Shown: piece after piece, positions 3,693 through 59,119 of the stretch
Numbering within the stretch: position 1 is the stretch's first letter
Layout of the letters: the number at the start of each line of letters is the position of its first letter
Assembly: GCF_001858325.1 (NCBI RefSeq)
Contig: NZ_MBPP01000032.1
Span: forward strand, 1 to 64,000
DNA length: 64,000 bases
From: Marinobacter sp. AC-23
GTDB lineage: Bacteria; Pseudomonadota; Gammaproteobacteria; Pseudomonadales; Oleiphilaceae
Reading direction: 5' to 3'
The notes under the pieces: model-generated
The model's input: the letters and a program-made list of their open reading frames with translations, nothing else
What the model was told of the DNA's origin: nothing
Database searches by the model: none
Position numbers and translations under genes: made by a program

Positions 3693-5947
3693 GCAAAAAA
3701 TCAGGGCCCTTGGTTAGGCGACTGTTACATCCCGCCTTCCCAGCGGTGATATTCCTTGTTTTTCTTGCCATGGCAGCTGGGCTTCGTTATGGCCTGATCC
3801 AACAGTACACAGGCCAGATACAGGCCAATCTTGAAAACGAAGCCCGAAGCATGGCCAACTCCATGGAGCGGGAGTTTATGGTTCACGCAGATTCCATCCG
3901 GCGCATGGCCAGCCGGCTGCAAAAAAATCCGCAAATGTCGGAGCGCGAATGGCGTGAGGATGCCCGTAACTATCTTGTAGACTTCCGCATTTATCAGGCC
4001 ATAGAGTGGATCGACAGCGACCTTATTATTCGTTGGCTAGAACCCCTTGAGGCCAATGAGAACGTCCTTGGCTTTAACACGGCGTTTAATCAAAACCGTC
4101 GCAGCGCACTGGAGTCCGCCAAGCAATCCGGTAACTACGACATTTCCGGCGTGCTGGATCTGCGCCAGGGTGGCAAAGGTATAGTCATCTATGCGCCGGT
4201 AGGCACTGGCCTCGACAACAGCGGTTTTATAGCCGGGGTCTTCAGAATGGAAACTCTGGCCCAACAGCTGTTGGCATCTCGGGAGCCGGCCATGTTTCGG
4301 ATAGCGCTCCACAGCAAAGGTGCTCTGGTGCATACCCTGAGTGACTTTGAAGGTGCCAGCGCGCCCATGTCCCACACCGTGCCGGTGAGTCCTCCCTCGC
4401 TGGAATGGCAGATTACTGTTGAACCATCGCCCGCATGGGTCAACAAACAGCGCAGCCCCTGGCCGCGCTGGACGTTCATTACGCTTCTTTTCATGGGCCT
4501 GCTGACCAGCCTCACAACTCTTATGCTGCAGATCATATTCAAGCGCAACCAGGTTCTGCTGGCAACCCGCCAGGAACTGGATGAGGAAATTACGCAGCGC
4601 AAAACCATTCAGCAAGACCTTGAGCGGCTCGAATCCACAGACATTCTCACGGGCCTGGCGAACCGACGCTTTTTTATGGAGGATCTGGCCCATGCGCTGA
4701 CCATTGCAGAGCGCATGACGCGGCAAGTCGCTCTGGTGATGCTCGATCTCGATCGCTTCCAGATGCTCAACGACTCCATGGGGCATCAGTTTGGTGACGA
4801 GCTTCTGGTCCAGGTTTCCGGGCGCTTGAACCAACTGAGTAATGAACGCATTTTGGTGGCCTATTCCGGCGGTGACGAGTTTATGATCTGCCAGCAGTAT
4901 GTGGAGGATATTGACGACGTCATTTACCTGTTGGGACGGATCAAACAGTGTTTTGGCGCGCCTTATGTGGTTCAGGGTGAAGCCCACAGTGTTACCGCAA
5001 CTCTGGGTGTTGCCGTGTACCCCCAAAGCGGCCAGGATGCCGATACTTTACTGCGCAACTCGGATATTGCGCTGTATCGGGCCAAAGAGCAGGGCCGCAA
5101 CACTTACCAGTTTTATACCGAGGGCATGCAGGAGCGGGAGGTGCTGCGGCTAGAGCTGGAGAAAGATCTTAGTCAGGCTCTGGCCAACAACGAATTTGTA
5201 CTGCATTACCAGCCGCAGCTGAACCTGGACAACGGCGAAATCACCAGCGTTGAGGCACTCATTCGCTGGCAACACCCCCGCCGGGGCCTGCTAGCACCCG
5301 GTGAATTCATACCTCTGGCTGAGGAAAGCGGTCGTATAACCGATATAGGGCAATGGGTGGTCATGGCCGCCTGCCAACAACTGGCCGCATGGAAAGGAAC
5401 GCGCTTCGAAAACCTTCGGGTGGCCGTGAATCTTTCCGGGCGGGAGTTGGACGACGAAAATCTGGTTGAACGTATACGCAAGGCGCTGGAAACAGAAGGC
5501 ATCCCCGCCGACCGGCTTGAGGTTGAGCTGACCGAGGAGATTTTCATTCAGAATATCGAACACAATCTTGGGCAGCTGTCGCGCCTGCATGATCTTGGGG
5601 TACATCTGGCCATTGATGATTTTGGTGTTGGCTATTCTTCTTTGGCGTACCTCAGAGACTTCCCGGTGGATCTTCTGAAGATCGATCGTTCGTTTATTAC
5701 CAACGTGACGGAGCGCCACGACGATGCTGTGATTACCCGAGCGGTGATTAATCTTGCCCATAACCTTGGTTTGCGGGTCGTTGCAGAGGGCGTGGAGACC
5801 CAGGCGCAGCTGGATTTCCTCAAGAATCATCGCTGCAACATGGCTCAGGGTTATTTGATCAGCCGTCCGGTTTCGGCCGCAGACCTGGAACAAGCTCTGG
5901 GTAGCGGCGTGCCAGAAACGCTCACACTGACTGAGCCAGATTTGTAA
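3689..5947 (+). CDS. CHASE-GGDEF-EAL cyclic-di-GMP signalling protein
   Basis: A 752-residue inner-membrane protein. A first membrane segment (about residues 16-36) is followed by a periplasmic CHASE-like sensor (about 40-255, including RIYQAIEWID and GFIAGVFRMETL), a second segment (about 262-284), a short coiled coil, a GGDEF domain (DILTGLANRR, SGGDEF at 393-398) and an EAL domain (EALIRW at 522). The EAL set is complete: NLSG, ELTEE, DDFGVGYSSL, LKIDRSF and AEGVET, so phosphodiesterase activity is likely. The GGDEF loop is intact but no RxxD I-site precedes it. The GTG start overlaps the upstream stop. Whether the net activity is synthesis or breakdown cannot be decided here. Confidence 0.92.
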   Translation: MSKKSGPLVRRLLHPAFPAVIFLVFLAMAAGLRYGLIQQYTGQIQANLENEARSMANSMEREFMVHADSIRRMASRLQKNPQMSEREWREDARNYLVDFRIYQAIEWIDSDLIIRWLEPLEANENVLGFNTAFNQNRRSALESAKQSGNYDISGVLDLRQGGKGIVIYAPVGTGLDNSGFIAGVFRMETLAQQLLASREPAMFRIALHSKGALVHTLSDFEGASAPMSHTVPVSPPSLEWQITVEPSPAWVNKQRSPWPRWTFITLLFMGLLTSLTTLMLQIIFKRNQVLLATRQELDEEITQRKTIQQDLERLESTDILTGLANRRFFMEDLAHALTIAERMTRQVALVMLDLDRFQMLNDSMGHQFGDELLVQVSGRLNQLSNERILVAYSGGDEFMICQQYVEDIDDVIYLLGRIKQCFGAPYVVQGEAHSVTATLGVAVYPQSGQDADTLLRNSDIALYRAKEQGRNTYQFYTEGMQEREVLRLELEKDLSQALANNEFVLHYQPQLNLDNGEITSVEALIRWQHPRRGLLAPGEFIPLAEESGRITDIGQWVVMAACQQLAAWKGTRFENLRVAVNLSGRELDDENLVERIRKALETEGIPADRLEVELTEEIFIQNIEHNLGQLSRLHDLGVHLAIDDFGVGYSSLAYLRDFPVDLLKIDRSFITNVTERHDDAVITRAVINLAHNLGLRVVAEGVETQAQLDFLKNHRCNMAQGYLISRPVSAADLEQALGSGVPETLTLTEPDL

Positions 5948-6986: not shown

Positions 6987-9607
6987 ATGAACGATGCACC
7001 TTTGTTACATACCAGTCTCAGCATTTCCGGCGCCACCTGTCAGGGCTGCGCCAAAAAGATTCGCAATGCCCTGGAGCCGCTAACCGGTGATACCGACCTG
7101 GTAGAGGTAAATCTGGAAGACCAGACCGTCGCGTTGCCGGAAGGCATCGATACCACGAAAGCGGCCAGGATTGTGACGGAAGCGGGTTACCCGGCAGAGC
7201 CGGTGGCTGATTCTGTAACTGAAAAGCCCGCCAGCTGCTGCTCGCCCAAGTCACAAAAGCCGGATTCAGAACCCGATGCAGGCGAGCAGGCCACGGCTTC
7301 TGAAAACAAACCTGAAAAACCGGCAACGCCGGCCCAAAGCGACGATCAGGTGTATCTGGCAGTAACCGGTGCTACCTGTGCTTCTTGCGTCAATACCATT
7401 GAAAAAGCACTGAAGTCTGTGCCCGGCGTTACCCATGCTCACATGAACCTCGCGGACAATACCGCCACGGCAACGGGCGAGGCAGACCCGCAAGCCTTGA
7501 TCCAGGCGGTGGAAAGCTCCGGTTACGGCGCCAGTGTGATTGAAGATGCGGATGCTGCAGACGACCAAAAGCAGCAAGAAGACAAAAAACGCTACAAAAC
7601 CCTTCTGGTGAAAATGGCGATCAGCCTGGGCCTGGGCGTTGGCCTGATGGCCTGGGGCATGGGGTTCGGCTCCATGACGGTAACCGAGGCGAACCAGGGC
7701 ATCTGGTTTGGTCTGGGCCTGCTCACTCTGGTGGTTATGGCCGGTACCGGCGGGCATTTCTACACCGGCGCCTGGAAGGCCTTCCGGCACCACAACGCCA
7801 ATATGGACACCCTGATTGCTCTGGGTACCGGCACTGCATGGCTGTACTCCATAACGGTCGTGAGCATTCCCGATGCCTTACCCGAGATGGCACGGCATGT
7901 GTACTTTGAGGCCTCGGCCATGATTATCGGCCTGATCAACCTGGGCCAAGCCCTGGAACTCCGGGCCAAAGGCAAAACATCCGAGGCGGTTCGTCGGCTA
8001 CTGGACTTGCGAGCGAAAACCGCACGGGTTATCCGCGATGGGCAAGAGCAGGATATCCCGGTGGAAGACGTGCGCAAAGGCGATCACATCCGGGTTCGCC
8101 CTGGCGAGAATTTACCGGTAGACGGGCGCGTCGTTGAGGGCAGCACCCGTATCGACGAAAGCATGCTCACCGGCGAGCCCATGCCCGTGAGTAAAGCGGT
8201 GGACGATGAGGTTTCCGCCGGCACGCTCAATACCCATGGAGGAATCGTCTACGAGGCAACACGGGTGGGTAGTGAAACCGCATTAGCCCAGATTATCCAC
8301 TTGGTGAAGAAAGCCCAGGGCTCGAAACCTGCCATTGGGCGGCTGGCAGACAAAATATCGTCGGTGTTCGTGCCCAGCGTGATGCTGATCGCGGTAGCCG
8401 CCGCATTGGTCTGGTACAACCTCGGGCCTGAGCCTGCGGCTGTACACATGATGGTTGCGGCCACGACCATACTAATCATTGCTTGCCCCTGTGCGCTAGG
8501 CTTGGCTACGCCCATGTCGGTAATGGTAGGCGTTGGCAAGGCGGCGGAATACGGCGCTCTGATTCGCCAGGGCGATGCCCTGCAAACCGCGGGCAAGCTG
8601 GATCTGGTGATTCTGGATAAAACCGGCACCATCACCGAAGGTCACCCGGCGGTAACAAGCGTGCACGCGGTGAATGGCGATGAACAGCAATTGCTGGCCT
8701 TGGCAGCAGGCCTGGAACAACATTCCGAACACCCGCTTGCGGAAGCCATTATTAACAAGGCGAAAGAGCAAAACGCACAGCCACTCAACGTCACCGGTTT
8801 TAAAGCGCTGAACGGCAAAGGCGTGGCAGGTGAGTTTGAAGGTGAGCTGGTTCGGCTGGGCAACCGCCGGTGGCTGGAAGCCGAAGGCGTTTCGTTAAAT
8901 GACATGGCCGATGCGGAAAAAGCCATTACCGAGCAGGCTGGCACCCCGCTATTCCTTGCCCGGGGCACTGAATTGCTAGGCGTTATGGGGGTTGCCGATG
9001 CCATCAAGTCAGATTCGCAGGCCGCCATCCGGCGCCTGCACGATGCCGGCATCAGGGTAATGATGGTCACTGGCGATATCGACGCCACCGCCAAAGCCAT
9101 TGCCGCCAAAACCGGCATCGACGATTACCGTGCCGAAGTCCTGCCTGAAGACAAATCCGACGTAGTGAACGAAATGCGCGGCAAAGGCTACACCGTGGCT
9201 ATGGTGGGTGACGGCATTAACGACGCACCGGCGCTTGCCGCCGCTGATGTGGCTTCGCCATAGGCACAGGCACCGACGTAGCCATCGAAAGCGCTGCGAT
9301 CACTCTGATGCGCGGTTCCCTGCACGGCGTACCGGATGCCATCGAGATTTCCCGGGCCACCGTGTCGAATATTCACCAGAACCTTTTCGGCGCCTTTATT
9401 TACAACAGCCTGGGCATTCCCATTGCCGCAGGCCTTCTGTACCCGGTATGGGGCATACTGATGAGCCCCATTCTCGCTGGCGCTGCCATGTCGTTATCTT
9501 CGGTAACCGTTGTTACCAACGCTAACCGGCTACGTCTGTTTAAATCCAGTCACAAGCCAGCTCAATCGCCAAACCAAGGCCAAAAATCAAAACAGGAGCG
9601 GAACTGA
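6987..9607 (+). CDS. copA: Copper-exporting P1B-type ATPase (one frameshift)
   Basis: CopA pumps Cu(I) out of the cytoplasm using ATP. The protein has two N-terminal heavy-metal-associated domains (TCQGC with Cys18/Cys21 and TCASC with Cys131/Cys134) joined by a Glu/Pro/Lys-rich linker, the membrane copper site CPC at 500-502, the phosphorylated Asp544 in DKTGT, the HP motif in HSEHPLAEA, and [10 protein letters not shown]. The first frame stops at 9261-9263 just after AAADV; the rest ([20 protein letters not shown] to the end) continues one frame over. Adding a G to the GG at 9251-9252 restores an uninterrupted protein of about 873 residues, so this is likely a sequencing error. It is followed by a coupled small gene (TGATG). 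Confidence 0.92.
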
Positions 9608-48781: not shown

Positions 48782-49561
48782 TCACTGGGCAATCAGCTGC
48801 ACCTTCTTAGCGACGCTCTGCAAACGTGGTAAATAGACGCCCATCAGCATACCCATATCGACCCGGGTGGAATTTGTGCTGATGTTAAGTGCACCGAGTA
48901 ACACCTGGTTGCCCGCGTATACCGGCACAGCAACTGAGCGCAGGCCGGAATCCAGCTCCTGGTCGACAATAGCAAACCCCTGAGTCCGGACCTTTAGAAT
49001 TTCCTTTTTTAGCGCTGCAACATTCGTGATTGAGGATGCCGTAAAAGCCTTCAGCTCCACGCCCTCCAGGGTGTTCTCCAATGCCTGCTCCGATAACTGG
49101 CTCAGTAAAACTCTTCCCATAGAGGTATAAGCCGCCGGCAGCCGCGTACCTACGGAGAGCGTGATGGCCATCAACCGATGACGGGCCGACGAGCGGACCA
49201 CATAAACCACCTCATCACCATCAAGTACCGCCAGCGAGGAAGACTCCCCCAGCTCCGCCGTGATCTCTTCGAGGTATTGTTCAATCACCGCGCGATACTG
49301 ATTTGAGGACTGATAAGCATAACCTAGCTGTAACACCCGGGGCGTCAGCTCAAACTGGCGTCCGATCCGTTTCACAAACCCCAGTGCATGCAAGGTCAAC
49401 ACAAAACGTCTGGCCTTGGCACGATCCACGTCTACACGGGCGGCTACCTCGCTCAAGGTCATTCGCGGATGTTCAGCATCAAAAGCCTGCAAAACTTGCA
49501 ACCCCGAAGCCAGTGCACCCACGAAATCACGGTCTCCGGGCTTAAGACTTGTTTCGTCCAT
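48782..49561 (-). CDS. IclR-family regulator, copy 1
   Basis: A 259-residue IclR-type protein. The N-terminal winged helix (LQVLQAFDAEHPRMTLSEVA, RVDVDRAKARRFVLTLHALG) and the effector domain (VYVVRSSARHRLMAITLSVG, AIVDQELDSGLRSVAVPVYA) are typical of the PcaR/PobR group regulating aromatic and acid catabolism. It is divergent from a CoA-transferase remnant at 49753. It resembles the second IclR gene at 53454 in length and layout. Confidence 0.88.
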   Translation of the reverse strand: MDETSLKPGDRDFVGALASGLQVLQAFDAEHPRMTLSEVAARVDVDRAKARRFVLTLHALGFVKRIGRQFELTPRVLQLGYAYQSSNQYRAVIEQYLEEITAELGESSSLAVLDGDEVVYVVRSSARHRLMAITLSVGTRLPAAYTSMGRVLLSQLSEQALENTLEGVELKAFTASSITNVAALKKEILKVRTQGFAIVDQELDSGLRSVAVPVYAGNQVLLGALNISTNSTRVDMGMLMGVYLPRLQSVAKKVQLIAQ

Positions 49562-49689
49562 ATTGACTCCTTCAGCTTTTCACACGGCGGGCTTACATAA
49601 TATCAGACTGTTCGGACTACGATCATCGGGATGGCCGTCATATCAACTGCACATTTGTTCTTGACGATACAAAACGAACCAAGCAATTC

Positions 49690-49727
49690 ATGTTCGCATA
49701 TAAAATATATGCTCACATACCGAACAT
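49690..49727. promoter_or_regulatory. Inverted TGTTCG half-sites between IclR copy 1 and the CoA-transferase remnant
   Basis: ATGTTCG (49690-49696) and CGAACAT (49721-49727) form an inverted pair; the first extends to TGTTCGCATAT (49691-49701) and the second, read on the other strand, to TGTTCGGTATG. The same TGTTCGCATAT is at 53191-53201 upstream of tctC. A shared IclR operator is inferred. Confidence 0.5.
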
Positions 49728-49752
49728 TAAAGAGCAAATTGGAGATACTTCG

Positions 49753-49854
49753 ATGGCTGAATTTCTCTCTCTCCGTGAAGCGGTGAAACAATATAATCCC
49801 AAGCCCATGGCCAAGGTTCTAGGTACGGCCACCGCCAGCGTCGAGCGTGTCTAG
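49753..49854 (+). pseudogene. 5' remnant of a CoA-transferase subunit A gene
   Basis: After a good ribosome site (GGAG at 49741-49744) the frame starts MAEFLSLREAVKQY, the N-terminus of the 3-oxoacid/glutaconate-type CoA-transferase alpha subunit, whose next residues are normally an aspartate-glycine-rich strand (DGDTVAMEG type). Instead it continues NPKPMAKVLGTATASVERV and stops at 49852-49854, 33 codons in total. The downstream part is unrelated, and a terminator hairpin follows 26 bases later. Most of the gene and any partner subunit are lost, leaving a deletion scar. The assignment rests on about 14 residues. Confidence 0.55.
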
Positions 49855-49880
49855 AACAAGATTTTTATAAGTTTCAAACA

Positions 49881-49911
49881 CAACGAACCCCGGATATACC
49901 GGGGTTCGTTG
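49881..49911. terminator. Strong hairpin after the CoA-transferase remnant
   Basis: CAACGAACCCCGG (49881-49893) pairs perfectly with CCGGGGTTCGTTG (49899-49911), five-base loop. It lies between the plus-strand remnant and the minus-strand tctA end at 49966, and can terminate both. Confidence 0.75.
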
Positions 49912-49965
49912 GTAACAACAGTAAGTGCGCTCACACTTTGTTAGGTTCTGATCACTCCAACCGAC

Positions 49966-51447
49966 TTACGCCATCGCCTCTTTCCTGGACATCCAGTAGC
50001 GACGAATCGCAAACAGCAGCGAAGCGACAGTAAGCAGAATGAAAACCCAGGTAATAGGGCCACGAACGAAAATCGAAAGATCCCCCTTACTGATAAGTAT
50101 GGTCCGTCTCAAGTTGTCTTCAAACATAGGCCCTAGAATAAAGCCGATCAAGAAGGGCGCCGCTGCGATACCCGTTCGATTGAAGATAAATCCCATAATA
50201 CCGAATACCAGCATCAAGCCAATATCAAAGGTACTGTTGTTGACCGCATAGGCTCCGTAAATACAGAACATCAATACGATGGGCAACAGTATGGTTTTGG
50301 GAATATCGGCGATGATGGAAAAATAACGAATGGCTGCATTACCAACGAACACCAGCACGAAAGAGCTGACCATAATCCCACAAAACAATGCGTAGACCAG
50401 CGTCAGATTTTCCTGGAACAAAACTGGGCCAGGCGTCAGGCCGTGAATCATGAATGCGCCCAAAATAATGGCCGTGATCACATCTCCCGGAATACCCAGG
50501 GATAACAGTGGAATCAACGTCGCACCAGCCACACCGTTGTTACCAGACTCTGCCGCAGCAACACCTTCAATCTCACCTTTACCAAAGTTGGCTTTACGAG
50601 GTGACGTGCGTTTGGCTTCGCTGTATGAGATGAACGCCGCTGAAGTTGCACCAGTACCGGGAATCGCGCCGATAATAACGCCGATTAGACTGCCGCGAAC
50701 AATGGTTTTCAAGAGTCCTTTAAACTCTTTCCAGGTCAACGATGCGCCGCTGACGGCGGTACGAATGTGGGGAGCCACCTTTGAGGTATAAAACTCAATA
50801 ACCTCGGGAATAGCGAACAAACCAATCAGCAAAGGGATGAACGAGACCCTGTCCATCAGATTATAGTCGTCAAACGTCAGCCGCTGAGTTCCATATACCG
50901 CATCCAGGCCAACAGTTGAAACAATAATACCCAGACTAGCTCCAATCAGCCCCTTGATAACCGAATCACCGGAGACAGAGACAATGATGGTCAACGAGAA
51001 ACAGATAAGCCAGAAATACTCAGGGGGACCAAAGTTCAGCGCAATTTTTGCGAGATAGGAGGCGAAAAAAATCAGCGCGACGTTGGAGATCATGTCCGCC
51101 ACCACGGATGAATACAGGGCCGTTTTCAACGCCTTTTTTGCTTTGCCCTGCTGCGCCATGGGATAGCCATCCAGCAGCGTACAGGCCGACGCCGGGGATC
51201 CTGGTGTGCGAATCAGAATAGCGGTGATTGAACCACCGTACATGCCCCCTTTATAAATACCAACCAGTAGCAGAATAGCCGTCACCGGCTCCATTGAAAA
51301 TGTAAACGGCAAAGCCAACGCCACTGCCATGGTTGCCGTTAACCCTGGAATTGCACCAACAACGACACCGACGATAACGCCCACGGCAATGGCAAGGAAG
51401 TTATCGACGCTCAGGAAAAGAGCCATGACTTCTGAAAAATTTTCCAT
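49966..51447 (-). CDS. tctA: Tripartite tricarboxylate transporter large permease TctA
   Basis: A 493-residue protein with about 12 membrane spans. The motifs GAIPGLTATMAVALALPFTF, IYKGGMYGGSITAILIRTPG and GIPGDVITAIILGAFMIHGL are TctA hallmarks. ATG at 51447 (MENFSEVMALF) is chosen; a longer in-frame start at 51516 would add 23 residues. It forms a complete TctCBA importer with the two genes upstream, taking up tricarboxylates, dicarboxylates or aromatic acids by ion coupling. Confidence 0.92.
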   Translation of the reverse strand: MENFSEVMALFLSVDNFLAIAVGVIVGVVVGAIPGLTATMAVALALPFTFSMEPVTAILLLVGIYKGGMYGGSITAILIRTPGSPASACTLLDGYPMAQQGKAKKALKTALYSSVVADMISNVALIFFASYLAKIALNFGPPEYFWLICFSLTIIVSVSGDSVIKGLIGASLGIIVSTVGLDAVYGTQRLTFDDYNLMDRVSFIPLLIGLFAIPEVIEFYTSKVAPHIRTAVSGASLTWKEFKGLLKTIVRGSLIGVIIGAIPGTGATSAAFISYSEAKRTSPRKANFGKGEIEGVAAAESGNNGVAGATLIPLLSLGIPGDVITAIILGAFMIHGLTPGPVLFQENLTLVYALFCGIMVSSFVLVFVGNAAIRYFSIIADIPKTILLPIVLMFCIYGAYAVNNSTFDIGLMLVFGIMGFIFNRTGIAAAPFLIGFILGPMFEDNLRRTILISKGDLSIFVRGPITWVFILLTVASLLFAIRRYWMSRKEAMA

Positions 51448-51529
51448 TTTGAGTAACCCAAAAACGTATTGTCTGATAACAGACGGAAACCTTGTTTCTG
51501 TGTGCGCTTCTCTCAATCAGCCACGCAGC

Positions 51530-52066
51530 TCAGATCTGGAAGAACGACTCCCAAAGTGTTCCGACAGGAAGAGGGACATTAAGCAAGTAGATAAACAATA
51601 GAGTTACGACCACTGGAAAGATAATCGTCAATGCATACAACCAGATACTGCGAAGTCCGCTGGCCAGGAACAGCAAAACACAGGCGAAAATACCGCTGCC
51701 GATAGCTCCCAGTTGCTCAAAGAAGAATGCATAAACGATACCTGCGGCCAGCATCAGAACCTGGCGCATGACAGGAACACCGCGTCGAAGCTCTTCTGGC
51801 TCCCCTCGCTTCGGTGGATTGATCAAACCGTCAACCATCAGAAGAGCCGACAGTACAAATACTAACCAACCCGCCAGCTGGGGAAGAAACTGCGGTGAGA
51901 GTAGCGGATGCTGCATAGAAAACGGCATCTCGATATAACGAGGTATGACGTAAAATAGAAAACTCACTGCCAAAATTGAAAAAACGCCCCCCAGAACCGA
52001 ATTGGGGTTCCATCGCCCATAATGGGCCTCGCTGGCCTCGACGAATTGCTTTTCAGAAGTTTCCAT
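51530..52066 (-). CDS. tctB: Tripartite tricarboxylate transporter small permease TctB
   Basis: A 178-residue protein with four membrane spans: VLGGVFSILAVSFLFYVIPR, LPQLAGWLVFVLSALLMVDG, ILMLAAGIVYAFFFEQL-like, and FPVVVTLLFIYLLNVPLPVG. Length and layout are those of TctB. ATG at 52066 is used. It lies between tctC and tctA on the minus strand. Confidence 0.88.
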   Translation of the reverse strand: METSEKQFVEASEAHYGRWNPNSVLGGVFSILAVSFLFYVIPRYIEMPFSMQHPLLSPQFLPQLAGWLVFVLSALLMVDGLINPPKRGEPEELRRGVPVMRQVLMLAAGIVYAFFFEQLGAIGSGIFACVLLFLASGLRSIWLYALTIIFPVVVTLLFIYLLNVPLPVGTLWESFFQI

Positions 52067-52148
52067 GATTAGGCCCTGTGTGCCGATCTGATTCAAATAA
52101 AAGAGCGGGCAATCTCATGGACAAGCCCCGCCCTGAACACAGCCGCTA

Positions 52149-53141
52149 TTAACGTTTCAGATTTGCCTTTTCCGCGACATCAGACCATTTCTCCAGGTCT
52201 TTCTGAACAAACTCACGAAAATCTTCACCCACAACGGTTCCAGCTTCTGCACCAAACTGCGGCAGGAACTTTTTAAACTCTTCACTCGCCATAACATTAT
52301 CCAAAGCCGCTTGCAGCTTCACCATGGCTTCTGCCGGGAAGGACTTATGAGCAATGAAGCCAAACCATGCATAAGTTTCATAGGTCTCAAGCCCATACTC
52401 TTTACCCGCTTCTTGAAGCGTGGGAACACCCGGCAAAAACTCGGACTCCGTCGGTGAAGTTACCGCCAGCGCTCGGAGCTTACCCGACTTAATATGGGGG
52501 TAAACCGTAGGCATGTTTTCGAAGGCCACATCCACGTCACCAGACAGCAGAGCCGGAAGAGCCTCACCGGAACCACGGAAAGGCACATGAACCAGATTGC
52601 TGTCGGTCATGCTTTTGAACAGTTCGCCCGACATGTGAATAGAACTACCAATTCCCGGCGAGCTGAATGAAAACTCTTGCGTACGAGCTGCCTCTATAAA
52701 CTCAGCCACAGTGGTATAAGGGCTGCTGCTTGGCACTACCATAACGTTTGGAATATTGATCATATTCCGTACAAAGGCGAAGTCTTCCAACGGGTCGTAA
52801 CGCAAACTTGGATAAATCGATGCACCAATAGTATGGCCAGGCGAGGCCATCAGCAGCATATGGTCTGAACCGCGTCCACCGCGTGCCAGTTGAGCCGTCG
52901 CGATAGTAGAGCCGGCACCAGGGCGGTTCTCAACAACAACAGTTGTGAGCTCTTTTTGCAGCAGGTCTGCCATCTTCCGAGACAGTAGATCCGTGGTACC
53001 ACCCGCAGAATAGGGAACCACTAAGCGAATGTTGTCTTCCGGCCACTCATCAGCCTGTACCAGCCCACCATAGGTCAGTGATACAGCGGCTAAGGCGCAT
53101 AAAATACGACCCTTCACACGAGTCTTCATTAGTTTCATCAT
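52149..53141 (-). CDS. tctC: Tripartite tricarboxylate transporter solute receptor TctC
   Basis: A 330-residue periplasmic receptor of the Bug/TctC family. Signal peptide ILCALAAVSLTYGGLVQADE, then DNIRLVVPYSAGGTTDLLSR, VVENRPGAGSTIATAQLA and MSGELFKSMTDSNLVHVPFR. Bug proteins bind carboxylates through a carboxylate-pincer. Ligand undefined. First gene of the tctCBA set; the upstream gap at 53142-53453 holds an operator-like palindrome. Confidence 0.92.
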   Translation of the reverse strand: MMKLMKTRVKGRILCALAAVSLTYGGLVQADEWPEDNIRLVVPYSAGGTTDLLSRKMADLLQKELTTVVVENRPGAGSTIATAQLARGGRGSDHMLLMASPGHTIGASIYPSLRYDPLEDFAFVRNMINIPNVMVVPSSSPYTTVAEFIEAARTQEFSFSSPGIGSSIHMSGELFKSMTDSNLVHVPFRGSGEALPALLSGDVDVAFENMPTVYPHIKSGKLRALAVTSPTESEFLPGVPTLQEAGKEYGLETYETYAWFGFIAHKSFPAEAMVKLQAALDNVMASEEFKKFLPQFGAEAGTVVGEDFREFVQKDLEKWSDVAEKANLKR

Positions 53142-53453
53142 TTTTGTAGTTACCCTATTCCTTGATTATCTGGTTCGCTTATCGAACATATGTTCGCATA
53201 TTGCGCGGGTACGTAATCTAACATATTCATTGGGAAGGTGCAAGATTTTTCTCCCTTCAGACTCCGCATTTTGACAAAGGGGAAAAACTAACAAAGAGAG
53301 GCCATCGTAAATATGCACCAACACCAAAACATGGCGCTTGCTTATAACTTACGACTCAAGAAGGGGAGGTGATTCCAGGGATGGAGACAGCAAACAGAAA
53401 AACTGAGTACGACTTTCCCCTCAGGAGCAGCCGTACCTTTGATAAACCCGATG
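53142..53453. promoter_or_regulatory. tctC promoter region with 14-bp palindrome CGAACATATGTTCG
   Basis: A perfect palindrome CGAACATATGTTCG is at 53183-53196, 42 bases upstream of the tctC start; the right arm extends to TGTTCGCATAT (53191-53201), identical to the site at 49691-49701. A further related element GGTTCGCTTAT is at 53173-53183. This matches an IclR-type operator. The rest of this 312-base gap, up to the IclR copy 2 stop, holds no supportable gene. Confidence 0.55.
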
Positions 53454-54233
53454 TCAGGGCAAAACTTCGGTAATTTTCCGCGCGGCCTCCTGCATAATGG
53501 GCACATACTCTTGAATGATCCGATCCATAGACACCGTACTGACATGGCTACTGGAGTTAAGCGCGAATTTTGCTGTTCCACTACGGTCTAGCACAGGCAC
53601 CGCTAGCGCTCTCATACCCAGCTCCAACTCCTGATCCACAATAGCGTAGCCATCTAAGCGTATCTTGCTCAGCTCTGCCCTTAGCTCATCCGGCCCCATG
53701 GTGTAAGCCGTCAGCTTTTCAAAGCACGTTTTCTCCAACAGATTTTCCAACTCCGGCTCCTGAAGCGCAGCCAGCAAAACTCGTCCACCGGACGTCGCGT
53801 AAGCTGGCAAGCGGGCGCCAATTTGGAGATTGATGGGGATCAGGCCACGACGAGGGATTCGGGCCACGTAAACAACGTTGGCCCCATCAAGCACCAAAGC
53901 GGAGCAGGATTCCTCAAGCTTATAGGAAACTTGCTCCATAAAGGGCGTAATGGTCTCAGTGAAATTCAGAGATGCCAGATAGGGATACCCCAGCTCAAGA
54001 ACCTTGGCCGTCAAACGGAATTTTTTGTCATCCTGCGACACATAGCCCAGCTTCTGTAAGGTAAGCAAAAAACGACGCGCTGAAGCTCTGGATAGATTGT
54101 TTTTTTGCGCCAGCGTCGACAGGCTCATCGAGGGCGTATCAGTGTCAAAGGATCTTATTACCTCAAGCCCGCGCGCAAACGTGGACAAAAACTCCTTGTC
54201 TAGACTAGCAGCATCCATATTCTGGTGACCCAC
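53454..54233 (-). CDS. IclR-family regulator, copy 2
   Basis: A 259-residue IclR protein. The DNA-binding part is STFARGLEVIRSFDTDTPSM and NLSRASARRFLLTLQKLGYV; the effector domain includes LDGANVVYVARIPRRGLIPI and AIVDQELELGMRALAVPVLD. It is a paralogue of copy 1 and lies between the tctCBA set and the beta-oxidation genes on the same strand. Likely effectors are the transported acid or its CoA ester. Confidence 0.88.
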   Translation of the reverse strand: MGHQNMDAASLDKEFLSTFARGLEVIRSFDTDTPSMSLSTLAQKNNLSRASARRFLLTLQKLGYVSQDDKKFRLTAKVLELGYPYLASLNFTETITPFMEQVSYKLEESCSALVLDGANVVYVARIPRRGLIPINLQIGARLPAYATSGGRVLLAALQEPELENLLEKTCFEKLTAYTMGPDELRAELSKIRLDGYAIVDQELELGMRALAVPVLDRSGTAKFALNSSSHVSTVSMDRIIQEYVPIMQEAARKITEVLP

Positions 54234-54351
54234 CCTAATTTATCCCCACAGTATAAACATCGTCAGCCGTTCGATAATCGGCCATTTTTTTCGGATAGTG
54301 GATAATGACAGTGAGGAATGGGCTATGCAAGCCAGCTTCACACACCAAACC

Positions 54352-54410: not shown

Positions 54411-56510
54411 TCAGCCTTTGTTGGCCATCCAGTCTTCAAGTGTCTGGTTGCTCTCAACAAGCTTTGTCAACAAGGGTGCGGGGCTCCAATGGGCTTCACC
54501 GGTGCGGTTATAAAGATTCTCTACGCATTCATACACCGCTTTCAGGCCGCGACGACTTGCGTAGAACATCGGCCCACCCCGATAAGAAGGGAAGCCATAG
54601 CCATGCACGTAAACCGCGTCGATATCACTCGGGCGCTGGGCAATGCCTTCTTCAAGAATGCGGAAGCCTTCATTGATCAACGCCATCAGGTGCCGATCAA
54701 TGATTTCCTCATCGCTCAACTCGCGGCGCTTCACGCCATACTTACTCGCTTGTTCTTCGATGACCGCAAGTACTTCAGGGTCAGTAGAGCGGGCACGGGT
54801 TTTCGGGTCATAACGGTAATAGCCGGCACCGGTTTTTTGGCCCAGCCGCCCCATTTCAACCAGTGTGTCAGCGATCACATAGCTGCGAGGATCGCCCTTT
54901 TGTGCAACCGTCAGTGCCTGTCGCGACTTGTAGCCAATATCCAGCCCTGACAGATCACCCACTGCCAAGGGGCCCATGGCCATACCAAAGTAGGTCAGCA
55001 CACCATCAACTTGCTCAGGCTCAGCGCCCTCAATCATGCAAAGCTGGGCTTCGCGCGCATACTGCCGCAGCATCCGATTGCCAATGAACCCGAAACAGAC
55101 CCCTGCCAGCACCGGCACCTTGCCCATGCGTTTGCCCAGGGCCATGGCGGTGGCGATAACGTCGTCAGCGGTCTTATCGGCACGAACAACTTCCAGCAAT
55201 CGCATAACGTTCGCTGGACTGAAGAAATGCAGCCCCACCACATCCTGAGGACGTGAGGTCACCGCCGCAATCTCGTCGATATCCAGATACGAGGTGTTGG
55301 ACGCCAGAATCGCACCGGCTTTGCAGACCTGATCCAAATGGCCAAACACCTGTCGTTTCACATCCATACTTTCAAACACCGCCTCAATCACCAGATCGGC
55401 ACTGGCCAGGGCTTCATAATCGGTGGTGCCCGAAATCAACGCCTGACGCGCGGCCGCTTGTTCCTGTGACAGCTTGCCTTTGCTAACAGTGATCCCGTAA
55501 TTCTTGCCAATCAGCGTCAAGCCCGCGTCCAAACCATCCTGATTGAGTTCCAGCAGAGTCACGGGGATACCTGCATTGGCAAACGACATCGCAATCCCGC
55601 CGCCCATGGTGCCGCCACCAATCACTGCCACCCGTTCAATACTTCGCGGCACAGTGGTTTTGTTCAGCCCCAGAACCTTCGGTGCCTGACGCTCGGCAAA
55701 GAAAATGTGCCGTAACGCAGCCGATTGCTCTGACTGTGTACGCTCGACGAAACAGGCGCGCTCATACACCAAGCCTTCATCGAACGGCTTCGCCATAGCG
55801 GCCTCAACACAGTCGACGATTATCTGGGGCGATTCCTGCCCCCGCTTGCGCTTACCAAGCATGGAGCGATAGGCCGCAAAGGCTTCGCCATCAAAGCTGT
55901 CTGCCGGAATCGACATATCCCGGATGCGCCGAGGCCCCGTGCCACCGGCTACCAGCTCACGGGCATACGCCAGCGCCGCCTCTTCAACAGGTTCCTCAAG
56001 GATTCGGTCGATCAGCCCTAGTGACAGAGCCTTCCGGGCGGTAATTTTCTGCCCGCCGGTCATCATATCCAGAGCCGCCTGTGCACCAATCAATCGGGGT
56101 ACCCGCTGGGTACCACCGGCGCCAGGTATCAGCCCAAGCGTCACTTCGGGCAGCCCGACCGTCGCCGATGCCAGCGCACAGCGGTAATGACAACTCAGCG
56201 TCAGTTCAAAACCACCGCCCAGAGCTGTGCCATGGATGGCGGCAATCACCGGCTTTTCCGAGGCCTCAATCGCCGCATTTACCTGGGGCAAAGAGGGGGC
56301 TTCGATCGGCTTACCGAATTCACTGATATCCGACCCGGCAACAAAAGTACGTCCTTCGCACAGAATAACAACGGCTTGGGAATCGTCTGCCTGCGCCTTG
56401 GTGATGGCCTCCAGCAGGCCATTACGAACACCGTGAGAAAGCGCGTTCACCGGCGGATTATTGATCGTAATAACACCCAGCTCGTCGACTCGATGATAAG
56501 AAACCAACAT
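54411..56510 (-). CDS. Fused enoyl-CoA hydratase/3-hydroxyacyl-CoA dehydrogenase
   Basis: A 699-residue bifunctional enzyme (FadB/FadJ alpha-like). The hydratase half (to about 190) has both catalytic Glu, in LGGGFELTLSCHYRCALA and GLPEVTLGLIPGAGGTQRVP. The dehydrogenase half starts with the NAD motif VAVIGGGTMGGGIAMSFANA and carries the catalytic His in VVGLHFFSPANVM. It performs the hydration and oxidation steps of beta-oxidation. No thiolase is adjacent, so the last step would come from elsewhere. Followed in gene order by IclR copy 2. Confidence 0.93.
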   Translation of the reverse strand: MLVSYHRVDELGVITINNPPVNALSHGVRNGLLEAITKAQADDSQAVVILCEGRTFVAGSDISEFGKPIEAPSLPQVNAAIEASEKPVIAAIHGTALGGGFELTLSCHYRCALASATVGLPEVTLGLIPGAGGTQRVPRLIGAQAALDMMTGGQKITARKALSLGLIDRILEEPVEEAALAYARELVAGGTGPRRIRDMSIPADSFDGEAFAAYRSMLGKRKRGQESPQIIVDCVEAAMAKPFDEGLVYERACFVERTQSEQSAALRHIFFAERQAPKVLGLNKTTVPRSIERVAVIGGGTMGGGIAMSFANAGIPVTLLELNQDGLDAGLTLIGKNYGITVSKGKLSQEQAAARQALISGTTDYEALASADLVIEAVFESMDVKRQVFGHLDQVCKAGAILASNTSYLDIDEIAAVTSRPQDVVGLHFFSPANVMRLLEVVRADKTADDVIATAMALGKRMGKVPVLAGVCFGFIGNRMLRQYAREAQLCMIEGAEPEQVDGVLTYFGMAMGPLAVGDLSGLDIGYKSRQALTVAQKGDPRSYVIADTLVEMGRLGQKTGAGYYRYDPKTRARSTDPEVLAVIEEQASKYGVKRRELSDEEIIDRHLMALINEGFRILEEGIAQRPSDIDAVYVHGYGFPSYRGGPMFYASRRGLKAVYECVENLYNRTGEAHWSPAPLLTKLVESNQTLEDWMANKG

Positions 56511-56593
56511 AAATAAGGCTCTCCTGTGGGGTAAAATGGCAAGCGCCGCGCTTTAGGTCTCGGCGCCTGTCCATGGAGAAAAAATTGGGTGAA

Positions 56594-57817
56594 CTATAGG
56601 ACACCGCCGGCGCGGAGCAATGCGATATCTTCCGGCGACTTGTTCAGCAAACGCTGAAGAACAGACTCGGTGTCTTCGCCCAGCAGCGGGGGCGCTTTGC
56701 GATAGGTTTGCTGGGTTTTGGAAAATTTAATCGGATTGGCAATACCCGGCACTTTCCCCAACTGCGGATGCTCCAACTCAATCTTCATATCGCGGGCTTT
56801 CACCTGCGGGTCGTCAAAAACTTCCGCAATGTTTTGAATGGGGCCGCAGGGGACATGAACACTCACCAAATCGTCCATCCATTCCCGACTGCTTCGGGCG
56901 CGGGTGCGCTCGCAGATTTTGCCAACCATCTCTTCCCGATGCAGCACACGCTGAGGATTGGTAGCAAAGCGAACATCCTCGGCCATTTCCGGACAGCCCA
57001 GTGCTTTGCACAAACGCTGAAATTGGCCGTCGTTGCCGACCGCGATAATCACTTGGCCGTCCTCGGTGGGAAACGGCTGATAAGGCGCAAGATTCGGGTG
57101 ATATTCCCCGGTACGCCCAGGCACTTTGCCACTGCAAAAATAATTCAGCGCCTGATTTGCCAGCCAGCTGACCTGTACATCCAACAACGCCATATCGATG
57201 TGCTGGCCCTCGCCGGTTTTGGTCCGGTGATGAATGGCCGACAAAATCGCAATGACTGCGTTCATGCCCGTGGTTAGATCGGCTACCGCCATGCCGACCC
57301 TCTGGGGCCCGGCTCCGGGCTGCCCATCGGCGACACCGGTAATGCTCATCAGCCCGGATTGCGCCTGGATCAAATAATCGTAGCCGGCGTCGTTGGCCAT
57401 TGGGCCGGTGTGGCCAAAGCCGGTAACAGAGCAGTACACCAGACCGGGGTTTATCTTGGCCATATCGGCATAACCCAGGCCTTTTTTATCCAGACCACCG
57501 GTTTTAAAGTTCTCGACCAACACGTCACACTCAACAGCCAACTCCCGTATCAGGGTCTGCCCTTCCTGGCTTCCGATATCCACCGTCACCGAGTGTTTAC
57601 CCCGGTTGGCAGACAGGTAGTAGGCTGACTGTTTGGTGGGGTTGCCCTGCTCATCCTTTAGCCACGGAGGCCCCCAATGCCGGGTGTCATCGCCCAAACC
57701 TGGACGCTCAATTTTGATGACTTCCGCGCCCAGGTCCGCCAGGATCTGGGTGCACCATGGGCCCGCCATAACGCGGGACAAATCAAGCACACGAATACCT
57801 GACAATGGACCGGACAT
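56594..57817 (-). CDS. CaiB/BaiF-type (class III) CoA-transferase
   Basis: A 407-residue CoA-transferase. The N-terminus SGIRVLDLSRVMAGPWCTQI and KIERPGLGDDTRHWGPPWL match the family, and the catalytic Asp is in MAVADLTTGMNAV. Class III enzymes move CoA from succinyl-CoA or another donor to a carboxylic acid, so here it probably activates the imported acid. It is 14 bases downstream of the acyl-CoA dehydrogenase and 83 before the hydratase/dehydrogenase. Confidence 0.93.
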   Translation of the reverse strand: MSGPLSGIRVLDLSRVMAGPWCTQILADLGAEVIKIERPGLGDDTRHWGPPWLKDEQGNPTKQSAYYLSANRGKHSVTVDIGSQEGQTLIRELAVECDVLVENFKTGGLDKKGLGYADMAKINPGLVYCSVTGFGHTGPMANDAGYDYLIQAQSGLMSITGVADGQPGAGPQRVGMAVADLTTGMNAVIAILSAIHHRTKTGEGQHIDMALLDVQVSWLANQALNYFCSGKVPGRTGEYHPNLAPYQPFPTEDGQVIIAVGNDGQFQRLCKALGCPEMAEDVRFATNPQRVLHREEMVGKICERTRARSSREWMDDLVSVHVPCGPIQNIAEVFDDPQVKARDMKIELEHPQLGKVPGIANPIKFSKTQQTYRKAPPLLGEDTESVLQRLLNKSPEDIALLRAGGVL

Positions 57818-57831
57818 AAATAACTCCTGGA

Positions 57832-58991
57832 TTAATGCGTGTTTTGGGCGTTACGAATCATCTGCTTGGCGATAACCAATTGCTGAATCTGTGAGGTGCC
57901 CTCGTACAAACGGAACAGTCGCACATCGCGGTAAAAACGCTCAACACAGTACTCGCTGATATAGCCCGCACCACCGTGTACCTGCACAGCGCGATCGGCA
58001 ACCCGACCCACCATTTCTGTACAATAGAGTTTACAGCTGGCTGCATTCATTGAGGTCGACTCTCCGGCATCAAAAGACCGCGCGGTCGCTTCAACCATAC
58101 ACTTACCGGCGTAATATTCCGTCTGGCTATCGGCCAGCATCGCCTGAACCAACTGGAAGTTGGCGATTTCAGTGCCAAACTGCTTACGCTGAGTGGCGTA
58201 GCTGGCACTTTCATCAATCAGGCGCTTGGCGGTTCCAACACTCAGGGCACTGATGTGCAACCGGCCCCGGTCGAGTACTTTCATTGCAGTTTTGAAGCCT
58301 TGGCCTTCTTTGCCGCCAATCAGAGCATCGGCCGAAACTCGCACATTGTCGAAGATGACGTCGCAGGTATGCGCGCCTTTTTGGCCCATTTTCTTATCCG
58401 GCTACCCAGAGAAATGCCCGCCAAAGTCGCATCTACCAGGAAGGCTGAAACGCCACGACCACCTTCTTCACGGGTGCCAGTTCTGGCCATCACCGTAAAC
58501 ACGCCGGCGCGGGTAGCGTTTGTGATAAAACGCTTGCTGCCATTGATGACGTACTCATCGCCCTCGCGACGGGCACTGGTCATCACCGAGCCGGCGTCCG
58601 AACCGGCATCGGCCTCGGTCAGCGCGAAAGATCCGATTAGCTCACCGCTGGCCAGTTTGGGTAAGTATTGAGCTTTTTGCTCCGGGGTGCCATCAATCAC
58701 AATACCCTGGGAGCCAATACCAACGTTGGTGCCAAATGTGGATCGGAACACCGGCGAGGTGTAGCCCATTTCCTGAATGATAGCCCCCTCTTCCGCCATA
58801 CTCAGACCCAGGCCGCCAAATTCCTCGGGAATCGACAAGCCAAACAGGCCCATCTCTTTCATTTCGCTGATCACGTCCTCGGGGATGAGATCTTCTTCGG
58901 CAACCTGCATCTCCAGAGGAATCAGACGGTCACGCACGTAACGGCGAACACTGTCGACAAATTGGTTCAGAGTTTCTTGGTCAAGTGCCAT
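57832..58991 (-). CDS. Acyl-CoA dehydrogenase (one frameshift)
   Basis: About 386 residues after repair, the normal length. The first part reads MALDQETLNQFVDSVRRYVR to FALTEADAGSDAGSVMTS and GVSAFLVDATLAGISLG, then breaks near 58403. The next frame continues MGQKGAHTCDVIFDNVRV, QFGTEIANFQLVQAML and VQVHGGAGYISEY, the FAD-binding and C-terminal helices. One base restored in GTAGCC gives LGKPDKKMGQKG. ATG at 58991 is chosen because GGAGG is five bases upstream. It is the first oxidation of the operon; the substrate is a CoA ester. Confidence 0.92.
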
Positions 58992-59119
58992 CACGGCCTC
59001 CATAATTTTTGCGAGATCACCAAGCTGTCCAAGGAAGGAACAGTGATGTATTGGAAACTAACGCCCAAAAGCGCTGCTATTAGGTACTTCTAAGGCATTT
59101 CAGATTTCAGATATCTCAA

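Follow-up and report, generated by a model that had tools for sequence, protein, structure and literature searches.

A putative relic ctA operator and a putative tctCBA operator of the PcaR/PcaU type in Marinobacter sp. AC-23

The window, a stretch of 64,000 nucleotides of Marinobacter sp. AC-23 DNA, holds two regulatory gaps that by their sequence are PcaR/PcaU-type IclR operators with the half-site GTTCG. The first (site 1) is probably the relic operator of a lost ctA-ctB-pcaF promoter. It would be read by the adjoining IclR protein, copy 1, which is predicted now to act in trans on contig 9, at the promoter of a surviving ctA-ctB-pcaF. The second (site 2) is probably the operator of tctCBA, for which a second IclR protein, IclR2, would be the main reader; copy 1 may bind there as well, given that the half-sites of the two operators are identical. 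The operator type itself is already known and the unusual part is the reciprocal loss. In this natural example, complementary deletions appear to have parted a regulator from the target operon that usually stands divergently beside it, leaving a dead promoter whose operator can still be read. With site 2, the cluster predicted in Marinobacter for dicarboxylate uptake and beta-oxidation also gains an operator that can be tested.

The repeated 11-mer and the operator unit

The 11-mer TGTTCGCATAT, described in the earlier note as an exact repeat in two gaps, is indeed present at 49691–49701 and 53191–53201, both on the + strand. Its mean occurrence in 100 shuffles of the window is 0.02 and two matches were reached in none of them (0/100). 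The whole genome (105 contigs, 4.15 Mb) carries three copies, the third being at 80056–80066 of contig 9, in the promoter of the surviving ctA-ctB-pcaF. With 1.4–1.7 copies expected from the composition of the window and one found for the reversed control, a chance repeat with no function would be in keeping with this number, and the count alone is unremarkable. The location is remarkable, as all three copies fall in promoters belonging to the ctA/tctC regulatory system, and the many random occurrences that the earlier note had considered are not seen in the genome. The 11-mer is also conserved across orthologous promoters, and the ctA-type and tct-type operator patterns each give no reversed-control match in 100 genomes. 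Chance is therefore very improbable, and it is rejected because of place and conservation, not count.

The inverted ATGTTCG/CGAACAT arms that had been noted at site 1 are found at 49690–49696 and 49721–49727. The 14 bp palindrome CGAACATATGTTCG, noted at site 2, is present at 53183–53196 and is the sole match at up to three mismatches, against 1.91 expected at such laxity. It is not the unit, however: what is conserved is the 15-mer GTTCG-N5-CGAAC, and the 14-mer arises where two adjacent boxes meet. The 15-mer is found in the window at 53173–53187 (GTTCGCTTATCGAAC), with more boxes at a 19 bp pitch. The only other 15-mer of the window with no more than one mismatch to it is GTTCGGACTACGATC at 49610–49624. 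These same two places correspond to the palindrome GTNCG-N5-6-CGNAC, perfectly at 53173–53187 and with one mismatch at 49610–49624, whereas site 1 is without an intact palindrome in this genome, having two mismatches over boxes 1, 3 and 4. The 19 bp pitch is seen at both sites, and falls within the 18–22 nt tandem spacing that, with this motif type and three-box sites, is described for IclR factors in the available part of PMC8222616. Each operator can be read as two 15 bp palindromes of GTTCG half-sites at this pitch from which one box would have been lost, box 2 being missing at ctA and box 1 at tctC.

Genome-wide, GTTCG-N5-CGAAC is found in six places, compared with four for the reversed control. 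Three of the six are in promoters of the system, two on contig 9 and one at tctC. The remaining three (contigs 12, 13 and 34) were set aside as background; they lie inside stop-to-stop frames of 702, 411 and 429 codons. Both sites are IclR-type operators by sequence and, as the earlier note suggested, they provide a usable motif.

Site 1 and the loss of ctA-ctB-pcaF

Site 1 (49692–49725, + strand) reads GTTCG catat AAAAT atat GCTCA catac CGAAC, in which boxes 1 and 4 are intact and boxes 2 and 3 are not. A -35-like box, TTGACG, survives from the old ctA promoter at 49661–49666 on the same strand, the -10 now being unrecognisable. In relatives, two operators stand between copy 1 and ctA, a GTTCG-N5-CGAAC on the copy 1 side and a multi-box one before ctA with the form GTTCG-catat-(t/a)AAAC-ttat-GTTCG-N5-CGAAC, subject to some variation. 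This ctA operator is present in all 22 upstream regions compared, with 0 to 2 mismatches in boxes 1, 3 and 4; 13 have none, and the window and G026 have two. The 11-mer TGTTCGCATAT is in 18 of the 22. A TTGACG-N18-nATnAT promoter stands straight before box 1 in 21 of these regions, the window being the exception. The regions were required to contain TTGAC, by which none of the 22 loci was lost, and they include the promoter from G012 (L087), where the ctA ORF was absent from the first listing; L089 and L090 were left out of the site counts and trees. Strict consensus scans for promoters and terminators found nothing at site 1 or site 2.

The ctA-type pattern has 23 matches in the 100 genomes. 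Among the 14 whose neighbourhoods were examined, 13 are upstream of ctA. The other (L128, in G083) is an exact match away from tctC and ctA with no reference gene adjoining, and may be a further regulon member or chance.

In all 13 relatives that have an orthologue of copy 1, ctB and pcaF are beside it on the opposite strand, with ctA between. Where copy 1 does not adjoin tct (n = 11), its other neighbour is of the LysR type (catR-like) in 10. The gene context in the relatives is therefore that of a PcaR, with a CoA-transferase and the pcaF of the beta-ketoadipate pathway next to copy 1, and the window keeps a scar only. The pcaF gene, for 3-oxoadipyl-CoA thiolase, exceeds the TIGR02430 cut-off. 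The names pcaI and pcaJ were rejected for ctA and ctB, which are far under the curated cut-offs (34.3 against 128.5 bits for TIGR02429 and 43.9 against 243.55 bits for TIGR02428) and are instead a glutaconate-type CoA-transferase, the nearest solved structure being glutaconate CoA-transferase. Their place beside pcaF and the catechol catabolic genes suggests that they carry out the 3-oxoadipate CoA-transferase step. Of the names used here, catB, catC, catA and pcaF are over the curated cut-offs; catR, pcaD and benA are best-match names under them.

The scar is an ORF of 33 residues at 49753–49854 (+ strand), in which the start of ctA (to about 49786) is joined to a 68 bp internal piece of pcaF (49777–49844). 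For the ctA start there are alignments to both G029 and G034, for the pcaF piece to G034 alone (77.9%, E 5.6e-9). Both of these genomes have the same neighbourhood of copy 1, tctABC, iclR2, HAD, CaiB and ACAD, and there ctA-ctB-pcaF is whole in the space from copy 1 to tctA. The deletion of ctA-ctB-pcaF to this scar, together with the erosion of promoter and operator, gives site 1 the look of a relic. A Marinobacter tct and ctA-ctB-pcaF cluster, 99–100% identical to the reference genes, is also present on a contig titled as a Rhodopirellula MAG (L175), which is probably misbinned.

Site 2 and the tctCBA genes

The genes downstream of site 2 are on the - strand: tctC, the solute receptor (52149–53141; PF03401, 8.7e-57), tctB (51530–52096; PF07331, 3.9e-12) and tctA (49966–51516; PF01970, 2.2e-150). 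All three products are over the Pfam cut-offs, which identifies a tripartite tricarboxylate transporter. We take TctC to be COG3181 and TctA to be COG3333. TctC has eleven matches among solved structures with Bug27 as the best, and its substrate is not fixed thereby. On the other side of iclR2 are genes for a 3-hydroxyacyl-CoA dehydrogenase/enoyl-CoA hydratase (HAD), a CaiB-type CoA-transferase and an acyl-CoA dehydrogenase (ACAD), together at 54411–59003 on the - strand and identified with Pfam and NCBIfam. The ACAD gene (57832–59003) is split into two frames by a frameshift and is intact in G034; either an indel from sequencing or a true lesion could be the cause.

Site 2 itself is a three-box tctC operator, CGAAC atat GTTCG ataag CGAAC, at 53173–53196 (- strand), with a degenerate further box at 53203–53207. 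A putative tctC promoter, TTGCAC-N17-TAGATT, lies upstream of the operator at 53215–53243 on the same strand; it was read by eye and was missed by the strict consensus scan. Of 100 same-genus genomes searched, 10 have the pattern CGAAC-N4-GTTCG-N5-CGAAC, with 11 matches in all; 10 of the matches, this genome's own among them, are upstream of tctC. In 9 of these 10 loci iclR2 is between the HAD gene and tctC. The survey used the exact pattern, so that tctC-bearing genomes with variant sites fall outside it. The pattern is also found upstream of tctC in M. daepoensis. A further CGAAC box is present 11 bp upstream in 4 of 12 loci (G066, G072, G113 and M. daepoensis), where the window reads CGCGC. 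The eleventh match (L103, in G093) is elsewhere than tctC or ctA, and may be a further regulon member or chance. The same genome has a second tctC paralogue (L164, 13880–14898) with GTTCGCTAAACGAAC upstream.

The two IclR proteins and their sites

Copy 1 (48782–49561, - strand) has IclR_C and HTH_IclR domains and is of the PcaR/PcaU/PobR type. Its best NCBIfam model is TIGR02431, at 275.2 bits against a cut-off of 284.75; since it is 9.6 bits short, it is named PcaR-like rather than PcaR. IclR2 (53454–54233, - strand) scores 288.8 bits, over the same cut-off, and belongs to the PcaR/PcaU/PobR subfamily. The two proteins are 43% identical and this model is the best for both. Orthologues of copy 1, with 75–81% identity, are found in 13 of 57 other genomes (58 were searched, counting the window's own), and in the gene tree copy 1 groups with other tct-linked copies with a support of 100/99.

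The putative own operator of copy 1 is GTTCGGACTACGATC, one mismatch away from GTTCG-N5-CGAAC, and a perfect version is on the copy 1 side of the gap in 13 of 13 relatives' regions (the window's own aside). Upstream of iclR2 is a degenerate 15-mer, GTTCGATAATCGGCC, at 54269–54283, with one intact box. Self-control of iclR2 is weakly supported, because two CGAAC boxes are held by three of ten upstream regions (G029, G034 and G069), with one box in four and none in three.

The recognition-helix core RAxARRF is found in 20 of 21 copy 1 proteins, the 21st (G026) being blank in the read-out, and in all six IclR2 proteins of the sample examined. The two proteins probably read the same half-site, since the helix core is the same and one palindrome, GTTCGATATGCGAAC, occurs at both kinds of promoter (2 of 11 tctC and 3 of 22 ctA sequences). 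As a result of this shared palindrome, sequence alone cannot separate the sites of copy 1 from those of IclR2. IclR2 is the likelier regulator of tctC, and cross-talk between the two is likely. A 59% relative of IclR2 is found on a contig titled uncultured Oceanospirillaceae, another family (L177), in an ACAD-CaiB-iclR2 run; two perfect GTTCG-N5-CGAAC, 20 bp apart, are before the ACAD gene (5420–5454), and there is no match to the tct references on this contig.

The earlier proposal that one IclR protein controls both units is unsupported as it was put, site 1 being a ctA operator and site 2 lying beside IclR2. It is quite unlikely that the PcaR-like copy 1 alone controls ctA-ctB-pcaF and tctCBA, with IclR2 controlling its own operon only. 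Such an arrangement would account for the 11-mer common to both sites and the palindrome that some ctA promoters share with some tctC promoters, as well as for G093 (completeness 99, 4 contigs), which has the copy 1 orthologue and the tctC operator and in which no IclR2 was found. In addition, the available parts of two papers report P. putida PcaR to be adipate-responsive (PMC12543098; 1.72-fold, PMC12455658). In G107 (completeness 100, 110 contigs), however, the tctC operator is kept with IclR2 and no copy 1 orthologue was found, and iclR2 adjoins tctC at 9 of 10 tctC operator loci. Strictly separate regulons, in which IclR2 would have the tctC and iclR2 sites and copy 1 the ctA sites through discrimination by box arrangement, are unlikely. 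There is a consistent difference in arrangement, with one form in the 22 ctA regions and another in the tctC loci printed, but the half-sites and recognition-helix cores are identical and G093 keeps a tctC operator with no IclR2 found. In view of G093, copy 1 may have a role at tctC alongside IclR2 as the main reader.

Contig 9 and reciprocal loss

The only other ctA found in this genome is on contig 9 (L075, about 7190–8005) and is frameshifted in the assembly. Its neighbours are a catR-like gene, ctB, pcaF and a pcaD-like gene. Of the contig 9 counterpart of copy 1, only the first codons are left, joined to a late piece, the regulator having been deleted. The deletions at the window and on contig 9 are both seen in one draft assembly with frameshifts. 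In gene trees, made from the best tblastn stretch per gene with stops as X, the contig 9 pcaF and ctB group with the copy on G066 contig 18 (97/82 and 99/97, the ctB bootstrap being unsettled). G066 has both modules, one adjoining tct and one with a pcaD-like gene. Since its contig 18 ends within the regulator and a third fragment is on contig 38, G066 is possibly a mixed bin.

A wider scenario can be put forward tentatively, as possible rather than probable. An ancestor would have carried the divergent regulator-target module twice. Reciprocal loss would then have left the regulator at the tct-linked place and the enzymes at the cat-linked one, so that the regulator of one lineage now drives the promoter of the other in trans. 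The GTTCG code common to both would join the beta-ketoadipate pathway and the uptake of dicarboxylates in a single overlapping regulon of two paralogues. Reciprocal loss is argued chiefly from two scars in one draft genome that has frameshifts elsewhere.

Proposed regulation

Both in the ctA promoters and, from the by-eye reading, in the tctC promoter, the operator lies on the putative -10 or follows it, which suggests repression that an inducer of the dicarboxylate type would lift. In the accessible portion of PMC12455658, P. putida PcaR binds GTTCGATAATCGCAC at its own promoter with an inhibition that succinate relieves, and with P. stutzeri PcaR, boxes on or after the -10 give repression. 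In one P. stutzeri construct, which had its box in third position, repression grew with succinate (PMC12455658), so the direction of the response cannot be read from box position alone. The accessible portion of PMC12543098 infers from fitness data that Ralstonia PcaR represses the beta-ketoadipate operon, and cites a P. putida PcaR homologue with a response to dicarboxylates, adipate among them.

The gene content points to a route for adipate, in which uptake by TctCBA would be followed by CoA transfer by CaiB, and then by dehydrogenation and hydration through ACAD and HAD as far as 3-oxoadipyl-CoA. This predicted end point would be the substrate of PcaF.

Comparison with known systems

In the open-licence literature, no related report was found on Marinobacter PcaR operators or on reciprocal gene loss in operons, and nothing on PcaU repeats or a palindrome at pcaI. 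The combination of TTT, adipate and IclR yields only alginate work there, and that of Marinobacter, adipate and TTT only a review.

As far as the consulted parts of PMC12455658 and PMC8222616 describe it, the P. putida PcaR operator GTTCGATAATCGCAC is like those here in its half-site and 15 bp layout, in having a PcaR-type regulator and in the beta-ketoadipate genes downstream. It differs in that the boxes here form tandems with a 19 bp pitch, the CoA-transferase alongside is of the glutaconate type rather than PcaIJ, and a tripartite tricarboxylate transporter operon here also bears the motif. The three-box operators of Acinetobacter baylyi PcaU and PobR, likened by their description in the same part of PMC8222616, have a palindrome and an external third half-site, as here. 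That source also ties COG3181 and COG3333 to aromatic genes in IclR regulogs, and at the level of these COGs the regulogs resemble the tct-linked motif of the window.
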